A stretch of DNA of 64,000 nucleotides. It comes from Halococcus salsus (GTDB lineage: Archaea; Halobacteriota; Halobacteria; Halobacteriales; Halococcaceae). The stretch covers positions 124,001 through 188,000 of the forward strand of contig NZ_JAAAJC010000002.1 of the NCBI RefSeq assembly GCF_009900715.1. Direction: 5' to 3'. The notes beneath the pieces are model-generated. The model saw only the letters and a list, made by a program, of their open reading frames with translations, did no database searches and was not told where the DNA came from. Made by a program: the position numbers and the translations under genes. This document shows, in pieces, positions 46,206 to 59,598 of the stretch; the first letter of the stretch is position 1; every line of letters begins with the position of its first letter.

Positions 46206-46277
46206 GGGCTCGTAGATCAGTGGCAGATCGCTTCCTTCGCAAGGAAGAGGCCCCGGGTTCAAATCCCGGCGAGTCCA
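46206..46277 (+). tRNA. tRNA-Ala (anticodon CGC), integration target
   Basis: 72 nt: acceptor GGGCTCG / CGAGTCC (one G-U), D stem GATC/GATC, anticodon stem CTTCC/GGAAG around loop TTCGCAA (anticodon CGC), variable AGGCC, T arm CCGGG-TTCAAAT-CCCGG, discriminator A. No CCA is encoded. The 3' 23 nt plus 3 flanking bases recur at 59573-59598 as attR, so the intact gene marks attL of the island. Confidence 0.96.
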
Positions 46278-46280
46278 TCC
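46255..46280 (+). other. attL core (26-bp direct repeat, tRNA-Ala 3' end)
   Basis: Starts with GGGTTCAAATCCCGG and runs 3 nt past the tRNA end (ATCC). Identical to 59573-59598. The preceding 14 nt of the tRNA (46243-46256) also recur near attR, at 59495-59508. The 209 bp between attL and the first island gene (46281-46489) show no gene. Confidence 0.9.
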
Positions 46281-46489
46281 TTCTAGAGCTTGAAACACAT
46301 GGCACAGACGGCATCCGGATAGGCTGCTATATCGTGTCCAACCCGTTCCGAGTTCAAGCGGAAAGGGCTGGGACTCATTCCAGATTGGGCTTCCCTGTGA
46401 GCTGACGCTTCTCTCTGTTCGTTCAAGACATAAAAGCGTGTGTGAGTCGTTGACTACACAGAGTGCTGGAACATCATAGGTTCAATACA

Positions 46490-47110
46490 CTAAGCAGCAT
46501 TCGTCGGCAATTCATCCTCATCACGTTCGTGGACATCATCGAAGGAGGCACTCGACTCATTGCCTGCCCATGCGATAGGAGTACCAAACGGTGTACAAAC
46601 ATCAATGACCTCCGCGATAGACTGAGACCGTCTCATCATCAACTTGACCGAGTCTGTCAATTCGACGTACCTTTCCACTGAGACACCGAGTGCATCAGCA
46701 CCCTGCTCGTTTTCCCATACTGGGTGCATTTCACCAAGCATGACAACGAAATCTGTCGGAGTGAGACCAGATGACCATTGGTAGTCCGCGATTTGGTCAA
46801 CCATCTCCAGTGTCCACTCATCAATAAAATCAGAAATCAATTGACAGGACTCTTCGTCAGTCAGTAGGTGGTCACTGACGTCGGTCTTAAATTCGAAGCT
46901 TGTTGGGTATCCATACCTTCCAGGTTCAGAGGTCGAAATATAGTAACTAATGTCTGGTTCGGATAAGCCAAAGCTCATCAACATGTCGTATTTCGATGTG
47001 GCATACAACATCCACTTGTTGACAACTCGTCTGAGAGCTATCTGCCGCCAAGTACTTGACAGTTCTCCGGGAGCGACCTGGTAGATGAGCGCTGCCATTC
47101 TATACTCCAT
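46490..47110 (-). CDS. Hypothetical protein of the island, 206 residues
   Basis: I recognise no family. The protein is acidic and mixed alpha/beta, rich in Tyr and Trp, and has no membrane segment. The start at 47110 was chosen because a TATATAA box at 47137-47131 lies 24 nt upstream, which makes a leaderless mRNA; an in-frame ATG at 47140 would overlap the TATA box. First gene after attL, leftward toward the tRNA. Confidence 0.6.
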   Translation of the reverse strand: MEYRMAALIYQVAPGELSSTWRQIALRRVVNKWMLYATSKYDMLMSFGLSEPDISYYISTSEPGRYGYPTSFEFKTDVSDHLLTDEESCQLISDFIDEWTLEMVDQIADYQWSSGLTPTDFVVMLGEMHPVWENEQGADALGVSVERYVELTDSVKLMMRRSQSIAEVIDVCTPFGTPIAWAGNESSASFDDVHERDEDELPTNAA

Positions 47111-47336
47111 GTCACATCTTCCTCGACCCGTTATATACATCTATTCATGTCAATTACCTTACTGTAGTGTAGGTCCGTGGAGTGTCTTTAACCAATTCTT
47201 ATCATTAGATTGAATAGTGTTGGATAAATGATTGTTTGTCTCCGAGATATCAAGGGGGGTGACATCACTACATCTCCGGTAGTCTCTCGGTAGAAATCGG
47301 CTACCGACGTGGTGAGCAGATGAGGGGCTGTACTCG

Positions 47337-47573
47337 CTATCTTTCCCAGACGGACTTTCTTTCGGATTTCTCCGATTTCCGCAACCGTCGCTCAAGTCGT
47401 TCATCTTCAATTCTCGCATCGTTGTTTCGTTCTGCAAGCAGCATTTCGGAGAGGGTACGTCCCTGGTTGTCGGTCTCGCCTGCGAGCTCGCCTGTGAATT
47501 CCGACGGATGAGGTACTCGCTCAACGACTGGCCCATCCTCAGTCTCTCGTACGGTGTATCGGTCGTTACACAT
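47337..47573 (-). CDS. Hypothetical acidic helical protein, 78 residues
   Basis: Starts MCNDRYTVRETEDGPVVERV and ends in a charged helix (RIEDERLERRLRKSEKSERK, about residues 54-73). No family is recognised. The separate longer frame overlapping it lacks haloarchaeal codon bias. The 226 bp between it and the previous gene (47111-47336) look non-coding. Confidence 0.5.
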   Translation of the reverse strand: MCNDRYTVRETEDGPVVERVPHPSEFTGELAGETDNQGRTLSEMLLAERNNDARIEDERLERRLRKSEKSERKSVWER

Positions 47574-47650
47574 GGTTCTTAGGAGGGTCTGTAAACTCTT
47601 GTAAGTATCGTGGATTTCTATGAGTTAGCCATGTAAGAATGGTGAGAAAT

Positions 47651-48373
47651 TCACAAATCGTCTTCTGTGAAAATCAGCTGTGTACTGTTTTCGTTGAGCC
47701 ATTCGGCACGAGCCTTGTACTCCGGGTCGTACTCGACGACGAGCGACCAGAAAGTCCCGTTGTGATTCGGCTCTCGGAGATGAGCGAGTTCGTGGACCAC
47801 GATGTAATCGATAATCTCGGATGGGGCCATCATCAGTCGCCAGTTGAGGCTCAGGGTTCCCGAAGTCGAACAACTCCCCCATCGCGTTCGTTGGTTGCGT
47901 AGTTCGATACTCTTGTACTCGACACACATTTCGTCAGCGTAGTGGTCGGCGCGCTCCTCGAACGTCTCCCGAGCCTTCCGTCGATACAACGTTTCCAACG
48001 CTCGTTGTACCGACGTCTGCTCAACGTGATGCCGCGCGAGTTTGAACGCCCCTTCTTCGACCGTCGACGCGGGCCGATGCTCGACAACGATTTCGTGCGG
48101 GTCGCCGAAGTACGGGAAGGTCGCGCCTGCCTCAAAGGTCCGGTCCGGTATCGTCTCTCGAAAAGAGTCGTACTTCTGTTTCTTCTCCATCACCCACGCG
48201 GCATTCTCGGCGAGTAGCTCCTCGGGGTCAGTCTCCGAATCTCGTGGCAGGACGACCACCACGTCGTGGATGTCGATGTCGATTCGTGGGTCGTCGGCCT
48301 CGTCGCTTCGGCGCACCTCGTAGGAGACTGTCTCACCGAACAGGTCGACCTCTCGCGGAGCCGCTTCAGGCAT
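47651..48373 (-). CDS. YgjP-like zinc metallopeptidase (DUF45/M48 family)
   Basis: 240 residues. A beta-rich N-terminal part is followed by NQRTRWGSCSTSGTLSLNWRL and the zinc motif HELAH at 194-198, with the third ligand His204 in EPNHNGTFW. COG1451 proteins of this type often accompany type I restriction-modification genes; the function is unproven. Its start overlaps the hsdR stop by 8 nt, so it is part of that operon. Confidence 0.88.
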   Translation of the reverse strand: MPEAAPREVDLFGETVSYEVRRSDEADDPRIDIDIHDVVVVLPRDSETDPEELLAENAAWVMEKKQKYDSFRETIPDRTFEAGATFPYFGDPHEIVVEHRPASTVEEGAFKLARHHVEQTSVQRALETLYRRKARETFEERADHYADEMCVEYKSIELRNQRTRWGSCSTSGTLSLNWRLMMAPSEIIDYIVVHELAHLREPNHNGTFWSLVVEYDPEYKARAEWLNENSTQLIFTEDDL

Positions 48374-51320
48374 AGTTCTCGATGAGATAGCTCCGGGTCG
48401 CGTCCACGAACTCGTCGTCGTTCATTAGCGCTGGCTTCTTGTGTTTCTTCACCAGCGTATCGAGAAGCAATTTTTCTATCTCCCTGACTGTGCTTTGGTT
48501 GGTCTGCCAACCGGGATAGCTTCGGTCGACGCGCTCTTCGAACTCTTCGCTGATGCCCTCGGCAATCTCCTCGGCCAATTCGTCGTTCTCGATGATGTCG
48601 GTCTCCTTGTCGGTCAAATGCGTGTAGATAGCGAACTCCGCATCCGACATCCCCCGTTCTCCGGCTTCCCTCTCGACTTCCAAGACCTCCCCTTCGACTG
48701 ATTTCAGCGCTTCGACCGCTTCGGGGTCGGCCATTCCACCGCTCTGCCAGCGTTCAACGATGTCGTTGACGCGCTCGCTCAATCGTTTGTAACGGGGGTT
48801 CTGGCCCGTCCGTGGATGCAGGTGTTCCCGAGTTGCGTGCGCGACCTGTGAGGCTTTCACACCGGGGTTATCCAGACCCTCTACTTCGTCGAGATACTCC
48901 TCGCCGAGCTTGTACATCGGGAAGTCGCGGCGTATCTCTTCGATGTCGACATTTTCGTCGAGGATGTCCCGCGTCTTCTGGGCCATGTCCTCCTCGGGAG
49001 CATCGTCGCCTGCGGTGGTCCGCTGGAAGGCTATCTGTATTTTACCCAGCCACTTGTATTGGTCCTGAATCCCTTGGTTGATGAGACGCTTGTCAGGTGC
49101 TACCGACTCGTAGAGGTCCTGAAGTCGTCGGAAGCCTTGCTTGAACTCACGGCGTTCCGGGTGGGTGCTGATTCGTTCGATGGCGTCGTTGGCTGCTTCC
49201 TGACTGTCGTTCTTCGGGATGTCGTCGAAGATGTCCATGACCGTTTCGACCTGACTCACGAGGTCCTCGAAGAGTTCTTTCTCGTCCTGAGCAGCGTAGG
49301 CCTTGGTCTCCGCGTCGTAGTCGAGCGCCTCGTCGATGTTCTCGAAGACCCCTTGGAAGTCGATGATTTCGCCGTTCTCCTTGCCATCGGCGGGACGGTT
49401 CGTCCGCGCGATGGCTTGCATCAGGTTGTGGTTCTTGAGGTTCCGGTCGAGGTACATCGTTTTCAGGACTGGAGCGTCGAATCCCGTCAAGAGCATATTG
49501 TGAACGACGAGGAGCTTCGGCGAATCTTCCTTCTTGAAATCCTGTACGATATCGTCTCTCTCCTCGGAATCCGTGTGGAACTGACGAATCAGCTCGGGGT
49601 CGTCCTTCGTCGCGGTATACAGCACCTCCACGTTCTTTTCGCCAAATCGCTCGATAAGTCGCTGGCCGTACATTGCCGTAGAGCGACGGCTGGGCGTCAC
49701 GACCATGCCCTTCCAGCCGTTCGGCGCGACGTGTTTGGTGTAGTGCCGTTCTATTTCCTCGACAGTCCTATCGACCCGTGGCGAGAGTTCTGCCAGCGTC
49801 TTCGCCGTGACCTGCTCGCGGATGAACTCGCGTTTCTCGTCGGTGGTCATCGTCCTGAACTCGTGTTCGAACTCCTCGTCGAGACCCGCCTCGTCGATGT
49901 CCCACTCCATCTCGTGGCGGAGCGTGAAGTACACAGGTAAAATCAGGCCGTCGTCGATGCCCTGCTTAACCGAGTAGCGGTGAAGGTACTCCTCACCTTC
50001 AGGCGAGAACTCTCGGAAGGTGTTGCGTTCGTTCTCGCGTTCACCCTCACGGACAGGCGTACCGGTGAAACCGAAATGAGAACACGTGGGAAGCGCGGCG
50101 TCAAGGCGACTCCCGAGGTCAGCCTCCATGAAGCGGTGGGCCTCGTCACTCATCACGATTACCTCGTCGTTGCCCTGAACATCCGGGTCGACATCGGCGA
50201 ACTTCTGGATGGTCGTGAGGACAAGCTGGCTCTGACCCTCCTCGATGAGTTGTTCGAGGTGAGAAATCCGCTCGGCAACGGTCCACTGTTCGAGCGAGAG
50301 GTTCGCCAGCTGGTCGCGCATTTGGCTGTTGAGCTTGTCTGTGTCGACGATGATGAAGACCTGGGGATTCGTCACAACGTCGCGTGAGAGAAGGTTCTGG
50401 GCCGCATAGAGCATCGTGAAGGACTTGCCAGACCCCTGGGTGTGCCAGATGAGGCCTCGGTTGTGCTCGCCCTCTCGCACTCTATCGAGAATAGCGTTGA
50501 CCGCGTAGTACTGCATATATCTCGGAACGATTTTGGCGTCGCCGCCGGTTCGGCGCTCGTAGAACACGAAGTTCTTCACGAGGTCGAGGACCGTCTCGGG
50601 GTTACAGAGCGCTTGCGTGGCCTGCTTCATCCCGTTGTCGTCCTCGTAGAGTGCCGGCGCATCGTTCCATGGTTGGTAGAAACCCTTGGGTGCGCCGACC
50701 GCGCCGTAGCGGAGTTCCATTGTGTCGGCGGCGATATTGAACAGACCGGGAACAAACAGCCGAGGAACGTCCTCTTGATAGTCGAGAAGGTCCCTCACGG
50801 CGTCTTTCCAGTGGTTGTCCTGTGCTCGGCTCTTGAGTTCCATCGTCACCAGCGGGATGCCGTTGACGAAGAGATTCACGTCTGGACGGATGGTGGTCTC
50901 ACGGGAGACCGAAAACTGATTGGCGGCATGAAAGCGGTTGTTCTCGGGGTTCTCGTAGTCTATCAGGTCGACGTAGATGGTCTTGCTCACGCCGTCAGCA
51001 CGCTTGACCGAGAAGGTCTTGCCCTTCGTGAGGAGTTGGTGGAACGCTTGGTTGCCGTCGAGGAGGTTTTCGTGGTCGAGGTCGCGTTTCAGCGAGGAGA
51101 TGAATTTCTCGACGTTTGCTTTGGTTACGTCATCGTTGAGCGCGACGACCTGTTCGGCGAGGAGGTCCCAGTAGATGACTTCGTTCGTTCGGCGTTCGTA
51201 TCGCTCGTCGAGGACTCGCGCACCCCGTCCGCCGTCCTGACCGTGTGTCTCCCACCCGATGCCGTCGAGCCACGAGAGTAGGGAGCGCTCGACGCCGCCC
51301 TCGTTCGGCGTGCTAATCAT
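48366..51320 (-). CDS. hsdR: Type I restriction enzyme, HsdR (restriction/translocase) subunit
   Basis: 984 residues from the ATG at 51320. A PD-(D/E)xK nuclease domain near the start (RPDVNLFV, then the ELK of MELKSR near residue 160) is followed by a superfamily 2 helicase: Walker A HTQGSGKSF near 292, DEAH near 391, GFTGTPV and the C-terminal helicase motifs (NMLLTGFDAPVLKTMYLDR, QAIARTNR). Cuts unmethylated DNA after ATP-driven translocation. All motifs look intact. Confidence 0.96.
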   Translation of the reverse strand: MISTPNEGGVERSLLSWLDGIGWETHGQDGGRGARVLDERYERRTNEVIYWDLLAEQVVALNDDVTKANVEKFISSLKRDLDHENLLDGNQAFHQLLTKGKTFSVKRADGVSKTIYVDLIDYENPENNRFHAANQFSVSRETTIRPDVNLFVNGIPLVTMELKSRAQDNHWKDAVRDLLDYQEDVPRLFVPGLFNIAADTMELRYGAVGAPKGFYQPWNDAPALYEDDNGMKQATQALCNPETVLDLVKNFVFYERRTGGDAKIVPRYMQYYAVNAILDRVREGEHNRGLIWHTQGSGKSFTMLYAAQNLLSRDVVTNPQVFIIVDTDKLNSQMRDQLANLSLEQWTVAERISHLEQLIEEGQSQLVLTTIQKFADVDPDVQGNDEVIVMSDEAHRFMEADLGSRLDAALPTCSHFGFTGTPVREGERENERNTFREFSPEGEEYLHRYSVKQGIDDGLILPVYFTLRHEMEWDIDEAGLDEEFEHEFRTMTTDEKREFIREQVTAKTLAELSPRVDRTVEEIERHYTKHVAPNGWKGMVVTPSRRSTAMYGQRLIERFGEKNVEVLYTATKDDPELIRQFHTDSEERDDIVQDFKKEDSPKLLVVHNMLLTGFDAPVLKTMYLDRNLKNHNLMQAIARTNRPADGKENGEIIDFQGVFENIDEALDYDAETKAYAAQDEKELFEDLVSQVETVMDIFDDIPKNDSQEAANDAIERISTHPERREFKQGFRRLQDLYESVAPDKRLINQGIQDQYKWLGKIQIAFQRTTAGDDAPEEDMAQKTRDILDENVDIEEIRRDFPMYKLGEEYLDEVEGLDNPGVKASQVAHATREHLHPRTGQNPRYKRLSERVNDIVERWQSGGMADPEAVEALKSVEGEVLEVEREAGERGMSDAEFAIYTHLTDKETDIIENDELAEEIAEGISEEFEERVDRSYPGWQTNQSTVREIEKLLLDTLVKKHKKPALMNDDEFVDATRSYLIENYA

Positions 51321-51415
51321 GGCTCTCGTTCGGATAGCACTCACATGGTTCTGTCGGTGAAACGGAGAAACAAAGCATTGGCTTCGTTCATCACGATGAG
51401 TGAACGTGATGGTCT

Positions 51416-51797
51416 GTGGATTTAGACGTTATTGACGACGTGGAGGCGGACGTCTCGATGGAGCGCGAACTCGAAGCCGAGGGGGTGGCGCTCGTGATGC
51501 CAGCGATGACCGTGTTGGAACTCTACATTGGCGTGGGAAAGGTTGCGAACACGCCCGCCGAGCGTCGGACCGTCGAGGCAGTGCTTAATTCGTAGTTAGT
51601 GGTGTCGATGACGCCATCCACCACTCGGCGTGCCGGACGACTCCTCGGCAAGCGGATGGACGACGGTGCGGACGGTCCCGGCATCAGGAGGATGATGCGG
51701 CAATCGCCGCGAAGCCATCGAACGCGACAAACCGGTTCTCGCTGGTGATTCGCACTTCGGGACGATTCCCAGCGTCACGCTTGAAACCTATCGGTGA
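51416..51797 (+). pseudogene. Decayed vapC-like PIN-domain toxin
   Basis: The first part (GTG 51416 to TAG 51595) encodes VALVMPAMTVLELYIGVGKV, typical of the VapC core. After the stop, pieces in shifted frames resemble the rest: a RRAGRLLGKRM-like helix, EDDAAIAA, and finally EAIERDKPVLAGDSHFGTIP with VTLETYR ending at TGA 51797. At least one stop and two frameshifts are needed. The N-terminal Asp motif is damaged, and no vapB is adjacent. It lies opposite in strand, exactly between hsdS and hsdR. Confidence 0.75.
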
Positions 51798-51798
51798 G

Positions 51799-53118
51799 TC
51801 AGCCGTGCGCCAGCACGTCGTCGAGAACCTCAATGTCCACGTCGTCGGTGCGGACCTCGCCTGAAAGGAGGTCCTGCATTAGGCCCTGTTTGAGGCGCTT
51901 GAGTTGAGAAATATACTCATGAGAGTCCATGAAAGTTTTCTGAACTTCTTCAAGACTCTCTGCGATTTCTTTCTGCTCTTCCTTTGGAGGTATCGCAATA
52001 ACGAGGTTGTCCAAATCGTCACTGCTCACTGAATCAAAGGTACTTCCGATAGCGATTGATTTCACGTACCGTTCACGCCTTCGGAGGTGGTGGTAGAGAT
52101 ATTCCGGTAGTATAGAGTCACCTGCTGAGATAGCGGCGAGTCCCCGTCCGATACAGCAGTTTCTGTCTGCCATGTTCACTTGTCCGACGTATGTCCCTCG
52201 AATGGTCATCAGTGTGCTACCTTCTTCGGCCGTCTTTACTGGATTTGAGCACCACCTATTATGGGAAGGACTGCGAAGACCAAACTCGTTGTTTGCTTGA
52301 AAGAATGGAAGACCGTCACCAGACTCGTTGTAGTATTCTGATTTCGGTGATGACCCCATTGTAATGGTGCATTCTTCACCCATCAGCCCACTTTCCCAGT
52401 AATCCGGTATGCTTCCTACGGTCGGGACCTCATCATAATCGCAATCAAGACGCTCTCCCGAAAACAGACTTTGCAGAAGTCCATCGTCAACACGTTTTGT
52501 CTGCTCGATTATCTCCTCAGTCTTCTGAATCGTTTGGTCGACGGCGTAGAGTATAGTGGCGATTTTGCGCTGCTCTTCGAGTGACGGAGTTGGTAGGTTC
52601 ACATCCCGAATATTCGACTGAGATAGATGTTTCACAGTCGTCCCCGCTATTGATTTTTGTATGTAGAACAGCGGTTTTTCAATCCCATATCGGAGGAATA
52701 TCTTGTTGTACTGCTTTGTGGGTTCTATCTTACATACTCGCTGGTTCAAGAGAGATTTCGGACCTGACCATAGGTGCGGCTCAAATTCTCCGTCCATTCC
52801 CACGAGCAGGTCGTCAGCTTCGATGAGATATTTTGAATCGTACTCGCCAGTGAAATTCAGGGTTGTTTTATCAGTTCCGAGGTCACGAATCCTAATCAGA
52901 GGAACACCTCCCTCATCGGCGAAGTCCTTAGATGAGAAGTTGTTACCAGTGAGTAAGTCTATATCAGAACCAATATTATTAACATTCCACTCGTCAGGAA
53001 CGTAGTCCAGAGTTGACCATGCGACTCCTTTAATCAGTCCATCATTTGGCTGGTTAGCGACATCGTTACTCGCCTCACTTTCATCTGTGAACTCGTCCAG
53101 TGATGCCTCCTCACTCAT
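51799..53118 (-). CDS. hsdS: Type I restriction-modification specificity subunit HsdS
   Basis: 439 residues with two target-recognition domains (about 25-165 and 215-375), each followed by a conserved helix pair. The first helix region is LPTPSLEEQRKIATILYAVD, the second is IPPKEEQKEIAESLEEVQ, each ending in LQSLFSGE or MQDLLSGE. The two half-domains set a bipartite DNA target. Start overlaps the hsdM stop by 8 nt. AT-rich relative to hsdM, as expected for exchanged recognition domains. Confidence 0.95.
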   Translation of the reverse strand: MSEEASLDEFTDESEASNDVANQPNDGLIKGVAWSTLDYVPDEWNVNNIGSDIDLLTGNNFSSKDFADEGGVPLIRIRDLGTDKTTLNFTGEYDSKYLIEADDLLVGMDGEFEPHLWSGPKSLLNQRVCKIEPTKQYNKIFLRYGIEKPLFYIQKSIAGTTVKHLSQSNIRDVNLPTPSLEEQRKIATILYAVDQTIQKTEEIIEQTKRVDDGLLQSLFSGERLDCDYDEVPTVGSIPDYWESGLMGEECTITMGSSPKSEYYNESGDGLPFFQANNEFGLRSPSHNRWCSNPVKTAEEGSTLMTIRGTYVGQVNMADRNCCIGRGLAAISAGDSILPEYLYHHLRRRERYVKSIAIGSTFDSVSSDDLDNLVIAIPPKEEQKEIAESLEEVQKTFMDSHEYISQLKRLKQGLMQDLLSGEVRTDDVDIEVLDDVLAHG

Positions 53119-54604
53119 AGTTCAGCGCCTCCATGTGCTGGGTCATCCGAGCCTCAATCTCGTCGCGCTCAGCCTGCAACTCCCGGAGCGTCGCTAACTC
53201 CTCGCGCACATCGATGTCCTCCTCGGGTTCAGTGGTGTCGACGTAGAGCGCGATGTTGAGGTTGTAATCGTTCTCGCGTATCTCCGAGAGTGACACCGTT
53301 CGGCTGACGCGCTCCTCGGTGGTCCACTCCCGGACGCTTTGCACGATGTGCTCGACACCCTCATCCGTGAGTTCGTTCTGATTCGATAGGTCGTCGTAAA
53401 ACGCTTTGTCGGCGGCGTGGACGAACTGGACTTCACCCTCCCGGTCGGCGGGCTTATCGGTGTTCAACACCAGAATCGCCGACGGAATCGAGTTGTTCTG
53501 GAAGAGGTTCTCGGGCAACCCCACGATGGCCTCCACAAGGTCGTTTTCGAGCATCGGCTCGCGATACTTGCTTTCGTGCTTTCTGAACAAGACCCCATGC
53601 GGGATGACAATGGCGGCCTTTCCACCCACGCCGTCGTGGTTAGGCGTCTTGAGCTGCTTCGCCATGTGCATGATGAAGGCGTAGTCACCACGGTCGGCTC
53701 GTGGGAGCTTCTCAGCCCAGTCGAACCGGCCATACGGGTCGTCCTGAAGGTCGTCCTTCGCCCAGTTCGCCGAGAACGGGAAATTGGCGAGAACTCGGTC
53801 GAAGCGCTGCAACGCCTCCCCGTTGGTGAACTGCGGCGCAGAAAGCGAGTCCTCACGCTCGATGTCCCCGCTAAGTGCGTGGATGGAGAGGTTCATCCGA
53901 GCGATGGCCGCGATGTCGGGGTTGATTTCCTGCCCCGTGAACGTGAGCTTCGAGGGGTCGCCACCTTGCTCTCGATAGTACCGTGCGGCCTCGATGAGCA
54001 TCCCACCGGAGCCAGCCGTCGGGTCGTGGAAGCTTTGCCCGTCCTCGAAGTCATCGACAAGCTGGACGCACAGCTCGACGATGTGCGGCGGTGTGAAGAA
54101 CTGACCTCCAGATTTGCCTTCCTCCTCGGCAAAGTGACGAACCAGGTCCATGTATGCCTCGCCGAGCAAGTCCGGCGGCACGTTGTCGCGGTCAAGGTCG
54201 TACTTGCTGAGGTGCTCGACGAGCTTCCCGAGGCGGTCGTCGTTGAGCGCGTCGGCGTCGATGTAGTCGGCACGGAACAGGCCTTGTAGCTCAGGGTTCT
54301 CTTCGGTCAGCGCGTCGAACGCTTCGTTGAGCGCTTGGTCGACGTTGTCGTTGACTGCCCGGAGGTCTTCCCAGAGATACCCTTCTGGAATGACCGGCGT
54401 ATCGAATAGGTTCGGGCGTCGGGCGAAGTCCTCTCCGTACTCATCGAGGTTCTCCTGATACTGCTTTTCGAATTCGTCGGAGATTGTCTTGTAGTAGACC
54501 AGCGGGAGAATGTAGTCCTTGTAGTCCGTCGAGTCCACTGCGTCTCGGATAATGTCCGCGCACTCGAACAGGTGCGAGTCGAGTTCGGTAAGCGTAAGCG
54601 GCAT
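53111..54604 (-). CDS. hsdM: Type I restriction-modification DNA methyltransferase HsdM
   Basis: 497 residues from the ATG at 54604. An N-terminal helical HsdM_N domain precedes a Rossmann-fold N6-adenine methyltransferase: motif I DPTAGSGGM near 191, motif IV NFPF near 271 in place of NPPF (a variant also seen in other HsdM). The C-terminal coiled helix (about 455-490) docks HsdS. Protects host DNA and sets the epigenetic mark. Confidence 0.95.
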   Translation of the reverse strand: MPLTLTELDSHLFECADIIRDAVDSTDYKDYILPLVYYKTISDEFEKQYQENLDEYGEDFARRPNLFDTPVIPEGYLWEDLRAVNDNVDQALNEAFDALTEENPELQGLFRADYIDADALNDDRLGKLVEHLSKYDLDRDNVPPDLLGEAYMDLVRHFAEEEGKSGGQFFTPPHIVELCVQLVDDFEDGQSFHDPTAGSGGMLIEAARYYREQGGDPSKLTFTGQEINPDIAAIARMNLSIHALSGDIEREDSLSAPQFTNGEALQRFDRVLANFPFSANWAKDDLQDDPYGRFDWAEKLPRADRGDYAFIMHMAKQLKTPNHDGVGGKAAIVIPHGVLFRKHESKYREPMLENDLVEAIVGLPENLFQNNSIPSAILVLNTDKPADREGEVQFVHAADKAFYDDLSNQNELTDEGVEHIVQSVREWTTEERVSRTVSLSEIRENDYNLNIALYVDTTEPEEDIDVREELATLRELQAERDEIEARMTQHMEALNYE

Positions 54605-54668
54605 ACTACAACGCATCAGCCTATCGGGCCTTAGCTTTCATGGATTACAGGCTATTGATGAGACTCGG

Positions 54669-54748
54669 CAGTAGTACAACCGTTGCATAGCTTCGTCGAG
54701 AGGGGTCTCAGCGGCCCGTGACGAAGGTCTGCTGTAGTCGTACTACTG
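54669..54748. repeat. Nested inverted-repeat element between hsdM and the short integrase
   Basis: Outer arms CAGTAGTAC (54669-54677) and GTACTACTG (54740-54748), perfect 9 bp. Middle arms CTTCGTC (54691-54697) and GACGAAG (54720-54726), perfect 7 bp. Inner hairpin GAGA-GGGG-TCTC (54698-54709) directly joined to the middle arm. The whole can fold as one 80-nt structure. Either a leader RNA of the hsd operon or a recombination site. Confidence 0.7.
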
Positions 54749-54793
54749 TGGAGAACCCCACGAAGGGAGGCATCTGTCAGCCGTGAGAGCATC

Positions 54794-55435
54794 TCAAGAG
54801 AGTCCATTGAGCTCCTCACCTATCGTTGACGATGTTGGTTCGGTGAGGTACGGCTCAATAGCATCGTAGCTACTCCATCCGCCGATACTCATCATGACTC
54901 GGGCGGAGACCTCCTCCTCAACGAGATAATGGTTCGCCCAGGCTCTCCTCAAATCGTGCGAGGAGACATGTTCCCAGTACTCCGGATGGTTGTCATCGTG
55001 CTCGCGGGAGCTGCTCTCTTTACCCTCAGACGGCGCGAGATTGCTTGCTGCTTCGCGTACCCAGCGTCGGATGCTATCCACGGAAACATCAACGTACGGC
55101 TCACTCAACGCAATGTCGCGCTCCTTAGCGTAGTTGTTGAGTTCGCGTTGCACGTCTTTGGGGACGTACGCCTGTCGTGTGGTTTTCTCCCCACCTTTGG
55201 TGTTCTTGCCGCGGACTCGCAACTCCCAATAGTCGCCATCGTCGTTGTAGGAGAGGCCTGCAGGCGTCGCTGATAGTACACCGCTCACACGTAACCCGAC
55301 CCTACCCATGAGGAGTACAGCAACACGTCGCGACCAGTCACTCTCGCGAGCTTCATCTGCGAGTGCGTTGATGTCGTCGGGGTAGTTGAGCCACACCTTC
55401 GTTTGCGAACTTGAGTCATCGATGCTCCGCGGCAT
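54794..55435 (-). CDS. Catalytic-domain-only tyrosine recombinase
   Basis: 213 residues containing only the C-terminal catalytic domain. Arg49 in GRVGLRVSGVL, His160 and Arg163 in SSHDLRRAWANHY, Trp187 in GGW, and the candidate nucleophile Tyr196 in EPYL. The N-terminal core-binding domain of normal integrases is absent, which is a known halovirus/plasmid form. Lies 190 bp upstream of hsdM, same strand. Confidence 0.83.
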   Translation of the reverse strand: MPRSIDDSSSQTKVWLNYPDDINALADEARESDWSRRVAVLLMGRVGLRVSGVLSATPAGLSYNDDGDYWELRVRGKNTKGGEKTTRQAYVPKDVQRELNNYAKERDIALSEPYVDVSVDSIRRWVREAASNLAPSEGKESSSREHDDNHPEYWEHVSSHDLRRAWANHYLVEEEVSARVMMSIGGWSSYDAIEPYLTEPTSSTIGEELNGLS

Positions 55436-55892
55436 ACACGCTTTGTTTATAATCTGTGTGTATAGCGCCTTCGGTCATCAGTCGACGACTCACCTCACTC
55501 CGGAAATCGTTGTCTTAGGGTCTGTGAGAGGGTTGGCTTCTCGCGGTGTGCACGCTTTGTGGTACAACCCGTGCACGGATGGATTGGGGGAGTATATTCT
55601 GCTGAGTCCAGTGAGAACAGAGAAATATATCATTGTTTTGGTTTTTTGAGAGAGGTTGGTTGACTGCTGCGAACACACCCTAACTGACAGCGAAAATCTG
55701 CTCAGAAATAGCCAGGGATATGGGTCTTTAACTATTCTTAATACCCCAGTTTTCCTATCAGCCGTGAATTTATAGGAGACCACTGGAGAACCAACTTGAG
55801 TGTGTCAACTCCATTATTCTGAAGCGGCGGGTCATGGCGCTCACCCAATTTCATATTGAACTTTTGATATCCTGAAGCCGAGGCCATGGCGT

Positions 55893-55910
55893 TGTGTACT
55901 CAGATACACA
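55893..55910. promoter_or_regulatory. Palindromic site, single copy
   Basis: TGTGTA-CTCAGA-TACACA, followed by GCAGTAAGG. Same consensus as the three sites at 57957-58036, and the flank TACACAGCAGTA is shared with the middle one of those. Probably bound by the same protein. Confidence 0.65.
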
Positions 55911-56046
55911 GCAGTAAGGTAGGAGTCGGTCATTGAATCACGCAATTGAGCCACGTCTCACTCATGTTATTCTCAAAGATTCGAACGTCAGAAAGTTTTA
56001 TAATTCTCGGACTCGGAAGGACTATGACAACGTAGCAGATGACCCA

Positions 56047-56087
56047 TGCTCCGCTAATGGAGTGAAGAGACGGGCGCTGGCACGCCC
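56047..56087 (+). ncRNA. Two tandem stem-loops downstream of a TATA box (possible small RNA or mRNA leader)
   Basis: Stem one TGCTCC/GGAGTG (56047-56052 with 56059-56064, loop GCTAAT). Stem two GGGCG/CGCCC (56072-56076 with 56083-56087, loop CTGGCA). A TTTATAAT at 55997-56004 predicts a transcript starting near 56028. The RNA would therefore open with both stems before the tiny leader ORF at 56100. Confidence 0.4.
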
Positions 56088-56099
56088 AAACAACCGACT

Positions 56100-56186
56100 A
56101 TGATTACACAAATAACACATCAACGAAGAAGTATAATTCTTGCGCATACTCTGAAGGGGGTGGTTCGTACCCGTGTTCAACCATGA
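56100..56186 (+). CDS. Possible 28-residue leader peptide overlapping the Rep-like start
   Basis: ATG 56100 to TGA 56184-56186. The basic peptide begins MITQITHQRRSIILAH. Its stop overlaps the ATG of the next gene in an ATGA arrangement, which would couple their translation. Coding status rests only on this overlap and on the preceding stem-loops. Confidence 0.35.
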   Translation: MITQITHQRRSIILAHTLKGVVRTRVQP

Positions 56187-57235
56187 GTGCGACACCAGCG
56201 CGGAGCATCCCGGTTCCTACTGAAGAGAAACCACTCTCTATAGAGAACGCTCTTCCTTCCGACATAAGGACTATACACGGCGCTCGGAACAACTACGACC
56301 TCAAGCGAATCCAAGAATTCGACGAACTCAGCGACGAGACACGCAACCTGCCAGACAAGGACCCGCTGCTTCGTGTCCGAGTTCCACGTGACCTTCCAGA
56401 AGAACCAGCGCTCAACATCGCACGTGCTGTCACGTATGGCTCCACTCGGAGTCTCTACAGACGCTGGATGATTGCTGGGTTGCTCAAGCTCGGTCACTTC
56501 GCGAGAGCACGTCGACTTGCATCGTGTGGGAACAAAACAAAGGACAGTGGTCGCTACTACTGCGGTCTCCATCGGCTTTGCCCTCGCTGTACTGCAGGAA
56601 GCAGTGCTCAGAACAACTACAGCGATTCAGTGATGCAGTGGAATCAGTGGACCTGGACAGCACTCCATGACCGACGCGCCCATCCTCATCCAGCTATCGC
56701 TCGGAGGTCCATCCTCGAAACCTTCGAGAAGCTCAAGCGACGTCGTTTCTCGGTCAATGAGGGATGGCTTCGGAAGATGCGCCGGTACGACCCGGACCTC
56801 TACCGTGAACTTCGAAGTGAGTACGTGAGCAAGGGTCTCGCTGTACCATTCCAGAAGCTCACTAAGTCAGGTATCGCAGGAGTCCACGTAATGCAAGTCA
56901 GAGGAGGATTCGTCGCACACATGGATGTTCTCTGTGCTGCGCCCTGGATAGAATCGGGTCCTCTGGAACACAAGTTGCGGCAGTGCGGGGGAGGTAACGT
57001 GTTGATACCCATGCGACTCCGAACAGAAGACGGTTCGGGGGATGTTGTCGAACCTGTTACAAGCGGAGACCTTGACGGAGGTATCCTCGATGGAGACCGA
57101 CGTGACCGCGCCGAAGCTGTCGACAAGGCCGTAGCATACATCAGCGACACGACAGACATCGAAGACCCGCAGGCTCGCGTGGAATACGACGCTGTAGTGA
57201 GCGGAGCACACTCTATTCATCCATGGGGGCTATGA
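56183..57235 (+). CDS. Rep-like zinc-finger protein (candidate plasmid replication initiator, degenerate HUH)
   Basis: 350 residues. A zinc-finger-like Cys set (C115, C127, C133, C136; YYCGLHRLCPRC) resembles those of rolling-circle Rep proteins. Later GGFVAHMDVLC (H246) sits where an HUH motif would be, but only one His is present. AVAYISDTTD (Y319) resembles the tyrosine motif but lacks the Lys. It may be a diverged or inactive Rep. Preceded by stem-loops and a leader ORF. No close family is recognised otherwise. Confidence 0.5.
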   Translation: MSATPARSIPVPTEEKPLSIENALPSDIRTIHGARNNYDLKRIQEFDELSDETRNLPDKDPLLRVRVPRDLPEEPALNIARAVTYGSTRSLYRRWMIAGLLKLGHFARARRLASCGNKTKDSGRYYCGLHRLCPRCTAGSSAQNNYSDSVMQWNQWTWTALHDRRAHPHPAIARRSILETFEKLKRRRFSVNEGWLRKMRRYDPDLYRELRSEYVSKGLAVPFQKLTKSGIAGVHVMQVRGGFVAHMDVLCAAPWIESGPLEHKLRQCGGGNVLIPMRLRTEDGSGDVVEPVTSGDLDGGILDGDRRDRAEAVDKAVAYISDTTDIEDPQARVEYDAVVSGAHSIHPWGL

Positions 57236-57323
57236 TTGTGCTGAGCCTCGTGTACAGTACTGAGCATGAGGAGTGCTTTTCGATGTGTCTGTCTCGCAGA
57301 TACGGAACTCAATCGACGAGAGA

Positions 57324-57857
57324 ATGAAGTTCAACGAGAAAGAGACGGAGCAGGTCTTAGGAACCCGTCTCCGAGTCAAGTTCGATGAAGATGATTGGTC
57401 GTTCGTTAGCGAACTTGCGGAGGAACGAGCCCAGTCCTATCTTAATCAAGAACGTAGTTGTAGAGATACTTCGACAGTCGATGCTCACCGTACCGGAGTA
57501 GCGGGCGAACTCGCGGTAGCGCGAACCTACGGTCTCTCCCTTGATACCAACGTCTACGAAGATGGTGATGGAGGGTTTGACCTCGTGAATTCGCATGAGA
57601 GTGACGACAAAGAGCCAGAATATATCGACGTCAAAACTCGCACAAGAATGGATGCTCGGCTGATTGTCGCCGAAAAGACCCTTCAGCGAGAGAACTCCGA
57701 TGTGTTTCTACTCGTGACTGTTTCGAAGACCTTTGCCGACCTTGTTGGTTGTGCAAGTCTCGAAGACCTCCGGCACGGGAAGCTGGTTCGGAGGGACTCG
57801 CAGAAGTACCGTGCACTCAGCCAAGATGAACTCCGAGAACTACCAGGTGTTAGGTGA
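57324..57857 (+). CDS. PD-(D/E)xK nuclease-fold protein
   Basis: 177 residues from the ATG at 57324; a GTG at 57273 would add 17. The arrangement GVAGELAVARTYG (Glu62), DGGFDLV (Asp86) and EYIDVKTRT (Asp102, Lys104), followed by LIVAEK, is the restriction-endonuclease-like fold common in haloviruses. Nuclease or DNA-processing role is inferred. It is 88 bp after the Rep-like gene, same strand. Confidence 0.62.
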   Translation: MKFNEKETEQVLGTRLRVKFDEDDWSFVSELAEERAQSYLNQERSCRDTSTVDAHRTGVAGELAVARTYGLSLDTNVYEDGDGGFDLVNSHESDDKEPEYIDVKTRTRMDARLIVAEKTLQRENSDVFLLVTVSKTFADLVGCASLEDLRHGKLVRRDSQKYRALSQDELRELPGVR

Positions 57858-57956
57858 TAATGAAACCCCGCAGACTACCACTCATCAATACACCAGAAAT
57901 ATAGACATCTGAGAGCGCGCTATGTGACTGTTATCTTTCATTTGAGTACCCCAACC

Positions 57957-58036
57957 TGTGTATCAGAATACACAGCTGTGTAACTCACTACACAGCAGTA
58001 TGGCAACATTAGTACTCCTGTGTAATTGTATACACA
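57957..58036. promoter_or_regulatory. Array of three phased palindromic operators
   Basis: TGTGTA-TCAGAA-TACACA (57957-57974), TGTGTA-ACTCAC-TACACA (57977-57994) and TGTGTA-ATTGTA-TACACA (58019-58036). Start-to-start distances are 20 and 42 bp, about two and four helical turns, so all sites face the same side of DNA. The last ends 37 bp before the ATG at 58074, next to a TATA-like ATTTATCC (58042-58049). Expected to bind a dimeric repressor cooperatively. Confidence 0.8.
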
Positions 58037-58073
58037 GAGACATTTATCCGGGAGGGGTTCAAATGGGAAAGTG

Positions 58074-58325
58074 ATGGAACGACTCCATACGGTCGACATA
58101 GAGGGATGGCAGGAGTACTTCGGAAAACTTGGTACATCCATATGGGCACAAGGTCCCAGCAGGAAGTCCAGACTTGCCTGGCTCTACTTTCAGGAGCCAA
58201 TTGACGATGTTGAGATACTCGACGAACTACGGGATGTCGGGCTCGAAATCATGCAAATACACCGTGGGATGGGTGACACGGTCCGCGTTGACGTAATGTG
58301 CCCACCAGTGCTGCCAGGGGCCTGA
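58074..58325 (+). CDS. 83-residue hypothetical protein under the operator array
   Basis: ATG 58074, with a purine-rich GGGAGGGG 13-20 nt upstream. The protein starts MERLHTVDIEGWQEYFGKLG and has ILDELRDVGLEIMQIH in a helical middle. No family is recognised. It is likely small, soluble and slightly acidic. The elaborate operator implies tight control; it may be a copy-control, excision or repressor protein (inference). Confidence 0.68.
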   Translation: MERLHTVDIEGWQEYFGKLGTSIWAQGPSRKSRLAWLYFQEPIDDVEILDELRDVGLEIMQIHRGMGDTVRVDVMCPPVLPGA

Positions 58326-58440
58326 GAACCAGCGCCGTTCACAGTTACTCACTCATACAAGGAAGCTACTCAATGTAGTATGAGTTGCAATGGGCCTCAT
58401 AAAGTAATTTTAGGCGGTTGGGCGAGAGGAAGTTTACGCC

Positions 58441-59451
58441 TTACACGCTATCGAGATACTTCGCTCGGTTCAGACGCCGCTGCTCTTTGTCCCTTGCGTC
58501 GTAGTGCATATCCAAAATAGGTTCCGAGACGTTCATTCGCTCGGAGACAATGGCCTTCGGGACGTCAGAGTCTAAGTGGTGAGTGATTGCGCTCCTTCTG
58601 ATTGGGTGGCTGCTTACTGAACCAGGACACTTCGACATGTGGTCGCGCTTAGTAGCTTGGCAATCGTCGATATCGCGGTCGTGCGGGCATTCGTTGGCGA
58701 AGTAGCACGGTCTAACAACTCGGTAGCATACTTTCGAGATAGTCTCGTAGTGCAGTCGACCTTGAGTACTCGCGAGTAGTGGGTGTCGACCAGAGTCATC
58801 GACAACGTCTGGTCGTTGCTCCTCAAGCCAGTCATCGAGAGCTCTGGCGAGTCGATTATTGGTAACGGAGACGTTCCGCTCTCCATCCTCTTTCAGCTTT
58901 AGCGAAGTGCCCTGCTCTGGACGATGGCGCACAGCGAGATAGCCATTATCCTGATGCCAATCCTGTACGTCCAATGAGTAGAGAGAGGACCTCCGCATTC
59001 CAGTGTGATAGAGCAGGCTGAAGACGAGGTGGTTCTTCGAAGCCCACTCGTATCGAGCCAGGTAGTCCATTATCTGAGTGGCCCGGTCATGTGAGATGTG
59101 CACATCCCGCGCTTTCTCGGATTCGGGGACGGTCGGTACGATGATTTTGTCGGAGACCTCCTCATCAATCACGCCCACGTTCTCACACCACCGAACGAAT
59201 ACACGGAGTGTCTGCATATGGTATTGGAGCGTGACTAAGTTCAGGTCGAAGTTCGTCATTCTCCAGTTCTTGAACTGCTCGCAGTGGAGTCCGGAGAGTG
59301 CCGACAGGTCGTCCAACTCGGACTCCTCGTCGAACCACTGAAGGAAGTAATTCAACCTATAGCGGTGGTTGGTAACCGTACTCGCTGTTGCGTCATGCCT
59401 GGATTCGAGATACTGTTCGAGTGCTTCTTCTGGTGTGAGCGTTGTTGTCAT
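58441..59451 (-). CDS. Full-length tyrosine integrase of the island
   Basis: 336 residues from the ATG at 59451 (the frame runs on into attR but is not coding there). The N-terminal core-binding domain (1-95; LTPEEALEQYLESRHDATAS) is followed by the catalytic domain: Arg in HTGMRRSSLYSL near 150, HPIRRSAITHHL near 280, and the Tyr of MHYDARDKEQRR near 315. A zinc-like Cys set (CYFANECPHDRDIDDC) lies between. Adjacent to attR, as expected for the integrase that inserted the island. Confidence 0.93.
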   Translation of the reverse strand: MTTTLTPEEALEQYLESRHDATASTVTNHRYRLNYFLQWFDEESELDDLSALSGLHCEQFKNWRMTNFDLNLVTLQYHMQTLRVFVRWCENVGVIDEEVSDKIIVPTVPESEKARDVHISHDRATQIMDYLARYEWASKNHLVFSLLYHTGMRRSSLYSLDVQDWHQDNGYLAVRHRPEQGTSLKLKEDGERNVSVTNNRLARALDDWLEEQRPDVVDDSGRHPLLASTQGRLHYETISKVCYRVVRPCYFANECPHDRDIDDCQATKRDHMSKCPGSVSSHPIRRSAITHHLDSDVPKAIVSERMNVSEPILDMHYDARDKEQRRLNRAKYLDSV

Positions 59452-59494
59452 GTCTGTCTGCTCTCCACCAACCCACAGGGAAACTCCGTAGTCT

Positions 59495-59598
59495 GGAAGA
59501 GGCCCCGGATGGCCGTTTCGTGCGAGCCGCAGCGAGCACGGAATGGCCACAATCGGACGCGTTAGCGTCTGAGGGTTCAAATCCCGGCGAGTCCATCC
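59495..59598 (+). other. attR with split tRNA-Ala remnant and two hairpins
   Basis: GGAAGAGGCCCCGG (59495-59508) equals tRNA-Ala 46243-46256. The 26-bp core at 59573-59598 equals 46255-46280. Contiguous in the tRNA, the two are separated here by 64 nt containing a 14-bp hairpin (59510-59523 with 59536-59549, two G-U pairs) and a 7-bp hairpin (59554-59560 with 59565-59571, loop GTTA). Confidence 0.85.

Follow-up and report, generated by a model that had tools for sequence, protein, structure and literature searches.

A copy of the target tRNA interrupted by two hairpins at the attachment site of a haloarchaeal integrated element and its relatives

At the attR of an element inserted in the gene for an alanine tRNA in a halophilic archaeon, the copy of the target tRNA is split into two pieces by a pair of tandem hairpins. 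The layout recurs in at least 13 other elements and over several target tRNAs, always in the same part of the tRNA and with two hairpins in the interruption; in one close pair of relatives the stems have changed in sequence and still pair. This split-tRNA, two-hairpin architecture is well supported. The recurrent layout looks like a structured recombination site rather than an accident, and of the three meanings offered in the initial annotation this one fits best. We infer that the module is retained because of its structure and that it keeps the tRNA sequence to the left of the T-loop apart from the 3′ core that recombines.

The element and its split attR

The window, that is, the whole stretch of 64,000 nucleotides analysed here, can be compared with the uninterrupted site of a genome of the same genus (L012), where tRNA-Ala is directly joined to the DNA that follows position 59598 in the window. 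Because L012 carries this empty site, 46281-59598 is identified as an integrated element, with the 26-bp repeat as its attL and attR (Table 1). According to Pfam, its cargo consists of the type I restriction-modification genes hsdR, hsdS, and hsdM, a YgjP-like metallopeptidase, and a short second integrase-like protein. The restriction-modification system (48366-54616) looks complete and makes the element a mobile defence island, and the second, short Phage_integrase protein (54794-55435, minus strand) has no SAM-like domain.

Table 1. Features of the element and of its attachment sites, in window coordinates.
Feature	Coordinates	Strand	Basis
tRNA-Ala(CGC), target gene, intact at attL	46206..46277	+	ARAGORN
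26-bp att repeat at attL, from the T-arm to 3 bp beyond the tRNA end	46255..46280	+	Exact match to 59573-59598; empty site in L012
Integrated element, ~13.3 kb, type I R-M cargo	46281..59598	.	26-bp repeats, congener empty site, Pfam
Tyrosine integrase gene, SNJ2 family; att immediately upstream of start	58441..59451	-	Pfam PF00589; ~38-40% identity to SNJ2, HRPV-9, and Harhisp1 integrases
Left tRNA segment, identical to tRNA positions 38-51	59495..59508	+	Sequence identity, random-window test
Hairpin 1, 14-bp stem, apex GA-GC-CGCA-GC-GA	59510..59549	+	Folding
Hairpin 2, 8-bp stem, loop GTTA	59553..59572	+	Folding
26-bp att repeat at attR, forming the right tRNA segment (tRNA positions 50-72, then TCC)	59573..59598	+	Exact identity; empty site in L012

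The left segment (GGAAGAGGCCCCGG) equals 46243-46256 of tRNA-Ala(CGC), where it is contiguous with the right segment and shares a 2-nt GG overlap with it. At attR, the two pieces of 14 and 26 nt are separated by a 64-nt insert (59509-59572), and the initial annotation had placed all of this exactly to the base. Folding bears out its two hairpins and the 14-bp stem of the first, which includes two G.T wobbles plus an inner 2-bp apex; the second stem, given as 7 bp, has 8. The two hairpins use nearly all bases of the insert, which folds at a dG of -21.8 with DNA parameters, compared with -11.9 for shuffles (z -4.7; 0/200 shuffles as good).

Chance identity of the 14-mer, already thought very unlikely, is ruled out. 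Within the window it occurs only here and in tRNA-Ala(CGC), the longest match to tRNA positions 1-58 in ~20,000 random 200-nt windows was 11 nt, and left segments recur across 88 regions far above the expectation from shuffles (see below). A tRNA intron is likewise rejected, since only positions 38-51 and 50-72 are present, with their overlap, so that the tRNA is incomplete and the ends of the interruption imprecise. A search of Rfam gave no match.

Recurrence and structure in related elements

Upstream DNA was collected for 29 related integrases, then for 85 loci (nearly all new) from haloarchaeal genomes, and for seven more from further searches; scans of genome contigs and viral contigs with degenerate peptide patterns found no relatives. 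The 45 tRNA genes in the genome of the window served as the tRNA library, and 15 tRNA stretches were also fetched. Split copies were sought by sequence alone, as a 3′ tRNA segment followed, at least 30 nt further left, by a separate collinear left segment, with expected counts taken from dinucleotide shuffles. Among the 88 usable regions, left segments of at least 9 nt were found in 13 (0.87 expected), of at least 10 nt in 12 (0.17 expected), and of at least 14 nt in nine (0.00 expected). L052, with no more than a weak 9-nt segment, was left out of the split cases, and three loci (L035, L039, L230) were added on the basis of visual inspection or of a comparison against the target tRNA from the same genome. 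The total is 15 split sites, or 14 with the near-identical pair L110/L142 counted once.

The split sites target tRNA-Ala (two isoacceptors), Val, Phe, Tyr, and Arg, and the left segment varies with the tRNA; in L034, for example, it fits the element's own target, tRNA-Ala(GGC), better than tRNA-Ala(CGC). A conserved integrase leader, which the initial annotation had named as the finding that would speak against a split tRNA copy, is thereby ruled out. In many of the cases checked, the intact matching tRNA lies on the same contig, a few to ~20 kb away, and in some it is on another contig. Uninterrupted tRNA copies at att also occur in many relatives (e.g., L041, L042, L111, L130, L143).

The interruption is constant in position and plan. 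For Ala, Val, Phe, Tyr, and Arg targets alike, the split point falls at about tRNA position 44-59, from the 5′ strand of the T-stem to the T-loop. All 14 inserts that were folded (L142 was omitted as a near copy of L110) form exactly two hairpins, with a mean z of -3.2, compared with -0.4 for equal stretches of the right flank. In sequence, the inserts are mostly unrelated, with short partial likenesses among L058, L121, and L156 only. The window's insert has no second copy in its own genome, and a search of 392 genomes gave, among the matches listed, the tRNA part only. A mobile or palindromic repeat family is therefore rejected. Of the other two meanings first considered, insertion of a small hairpin element into the T-arm fits in geometry but not in sequence, as no repeat-family sequence appears among the inserts, and recombination at two points in the tRNA is without support.

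The pair L034/L231 illustrates how structure can be kept while sequence changes. The two integrases are 83% identical over the compared part, both inserts are 84 nt long, and the tRNA segments and the first 12 insert nt are identical; the stems differ. Arms form duplexes of -11 to -14 kcal/mol with their own partners and of only -5 to -7 kcal/mol when cross-paired. This is good evidence, limited to one pair, that pairing may be under selection, although template switching could likewise keep the stems matched. Together with the two-hairpin rule over the 14 inserts, the pair displays what is expected of structured sites, namely pairing kept as sequence changes.

Several further observations concern hairpins in these regions. 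In L156, a 26-nt left segment that includes the whole anticodon arm is followed by two hairpins in 68 nt, the core, and then a second, tandem copy of the core. Upstream of the L051 integrase, a large hairpin appears to break the anticodon arm, not the T-arm, of a tRNA copy. The motif GAGCGNAGCGA occurs six times in the window (27551, 35180, 35249, 38751, 38784, 45922; 0.62 expected); GCGNAGC, known to form very stable DNA mini-hairpins, is found at the tip of several att hairpins in relatives (L036, L058, L110, L121).

Within the clade of the window's integrase (~50% identity and above), the double hairpin is present in eight of ten members, whichever tRNA is targeted (L033, L034, L035, L036, L037, L039, L230, L231). 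A further member, L038, is truncated with an unreadable att region and stands outside the ten. The remaining two have no hairpins, and their almost unbroken copies bear single-base insertions where the others are split: single C residues (in square brackets) flank the T-loop GTTC in L229 (CGG[C]GTTCA[C]AATCC) and L234 (GGCG[C]GTTC[C]GAATCC), as they also do in L053, outside the clade. L034, for its part, has CCCG[C]GGTT. Outside the clade, split and uninterrupted states are both present. Given this and the eight of ten inside, the module is probably ancient within the clade and subject to loss. When the family is taken as a whole, DNA immediately to the left of the core folds more strongly than DNA to its right (mean z -1.20 vs. 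-0.42, p 0.0009), a modest enrichment; regions in which at least two hairpins lie next to the core are not in excess outside the split cases. The double hairpin is therefore a feature of a subset, and its being universal in the SNJ2-type family is ruled out.

Position relative to the integrase and possible roles

In the phage collection, the named integrases closest to the window's are those of Harhisp1, HRPV-9, and SNJ2, at the identities of Table 1 over the full length. The window's protein has a Phage_integrase domain, and its match to a SAM-like N-terminal domain is below the curated cut-off. The full-length similarity and a short att core at the tRNA 3′ end place it in the SNJ2 type. Only 43 bases separate the start of the integrase gene from the left tRNA segment. 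In pleolipoviruses, attP was reported downstream of the integrase gene (PMC7911831), and the annotated 15-nt attP of Harhisp1 is downstream of int; in the window's element and most relatives surveyed, att is upstream of the start codon. In the circular form of the window's element (59452-59598 joined to 46281 onward), the integrase frame continues upstream through attP without a stop for at least 80 codons. The coding across attP that has been reported for pleolipoviruses is ruled out as a general explanation, as the frame closes within 22 codons in L034, L035, L036, L058, and L229.

The att cores of the SNJ2 integrase family are ~13-15 nt (PMC8371274); the repeat is 26 bp here, and relatives share down to 12-15 nt. 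Since core lengths are of this order and the identity of attP and tRNA starts only at position 58-63 in some relatives, strand exchange is likely to occur right of position 58. Judged by sequence identity, the crossover most likely lies there, which would leave the left tRNA segment and the hairpins beside the core, outside it.

The explanation that we favor, if tentatively and at rather less than even probability, is that of a structured attP/attR module in which the tRNA copy, interrupted at the T-stem/T-loop by two tandem hairpins, would be kept for its structure and for a rejoining that depends on folding. The attachment arm of the element (attP, persisting as attR) would hold the interrupted copy. 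With the hairpins extruded, either as a cruciform in the supercoiled circle or on folded single-stranded DNA at the time of replication, the tRNA pieces would abut each other and resemble attB; otherwise, attP and attR would be unlike attB. The site could thus depend on DNA topology, and attR could be kept from being an ordinary second target. The excess of left segments, the two-hairpin rule, the constant position, the re-pairing in L034/L231, and the eight of ten clade members all point to this structural explanation. Against it stand L229 and L234, which are within the clade and without the module, the place of the left segment outside the 13-15-nt core of SNJ2-type integrases, and the modest family-wide enrichment of hairpins next to the core. 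Because many relatives carry uninterrupted copies, the module is dispensable for the integrase family in general. A bolder form of the idea, which we consider rather unlikely, makes the left segment a half-site that would meet the core only on extrusion of both hairpins, giving topology-dependent, directional recombination and a new class of attachment site. Such a half-site is putative, as the left segment lies outside the core.

Other roles or origins may be considered for the hairpins. They could enter or grow passively, perhaps by template switching, which keeps stems paired, as palindrome-rich DNA in the part of the tRNA copy left of the core, which would have no function. In this DNA as a whole, hairpins capped by GAGCGNAGCGA are more frequent than expected, left segments decay at differing points, and some clade members lack the insert, all as expected of such an origin. 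However, the inserts are mostly unrelated, and the window's has no other genome copy, yet all consist of two hairpins in one place, and L034 and L231 retain insert length, ends, and pairing despite their changed stems. On balance, passive insertion is rather unlikely. The hairpins could instead act as RNA, either within the integrase mRNA leader or as part of an antisense transcript over attP, serving as an attenuator, a stabilizer, or a means of translation control, with their location in a tRNA copy incidental. This is consistent with the distance of 41-158 nt between att and the integrase start in the split cases and with the better folding of the tRNA-sense strand in 11 of 14 inserts; however, this better-folding strand is complementary to the integrase mRNA, the distance to the start codon varies widely, and Rfam gives no match. 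An RNA role would also leave unexplained the constant T-arm position in the target tRNA and the exact left tRNA piece, and we regard it as unlikely, a shade more so than passive insertion.

Finally, the T-arm copy may be broken deliberately, so that attR is no attB for the same or rival elements or yields no tRNA-like transcript, with hairpins as one way of doing this and single-base insertions as another. The one-base insertions at the same place in the hairpin-less L229, L234, and L053, and the extra C of L034, are what this would predict. However, many relatives keep an intact T-arm copy, and neither the paired stems nor the constant number of two is accounted for, which makes this the least probable of the explanations considered and an improbable one in itself.

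Relation to known systems

How attP and attR are told from attB in archaea by tyrosine integrases that lack obvious arm-binding domains or directionality factors is an open question, and a recurrent insert of conserved structure in a tRNA copy is a defined module that is open to manipulation in a laboratory halophile. If the hairpins do control direction, a structured DNA site would be added to the tyrosine-integrase repertoire; if they do not, they would still mark the ends of haloarchaeal islands that searches for contiguous tRNA copies would truncate. A keyword search of titles, abstracts, and text in the open-access literature found no account of an attachment site at which hairpins divide the tRNA copy.

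The closest systems, SNJ2, HRPV-9, and Harhisp1, share the protein family, the tRNA 3′-end targets, and the short att core. They differ in that their annotated or reported attP is downstream of the integrase gene, and split tRNAs or hairpins are unreported for them in the sources examined. Intron-containing and split archaeal tRNA genes are similar in that tRNA sequence is broken by a structured insert; however, the att copies are without the 5′ half, their ends overlap or are gapped, the insert is a plain pair of hairpins, and the other end of the element carries the functional tRNA. REP-like or MITE repeats are also short palindromic units, some sharing a loop motif, but the att inserts show no repeat family and instead a fixed place and number. 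Pairing of bases takes the place of conserved sequence in integron attC sites and in the single-stranded, folded attP of CTX phage. These are, like the att described here, recombination sites with base-paired structure; their folding builds the double-stranded core itself, whereas in the window's element the hairpins are beside a core that needs no folding.
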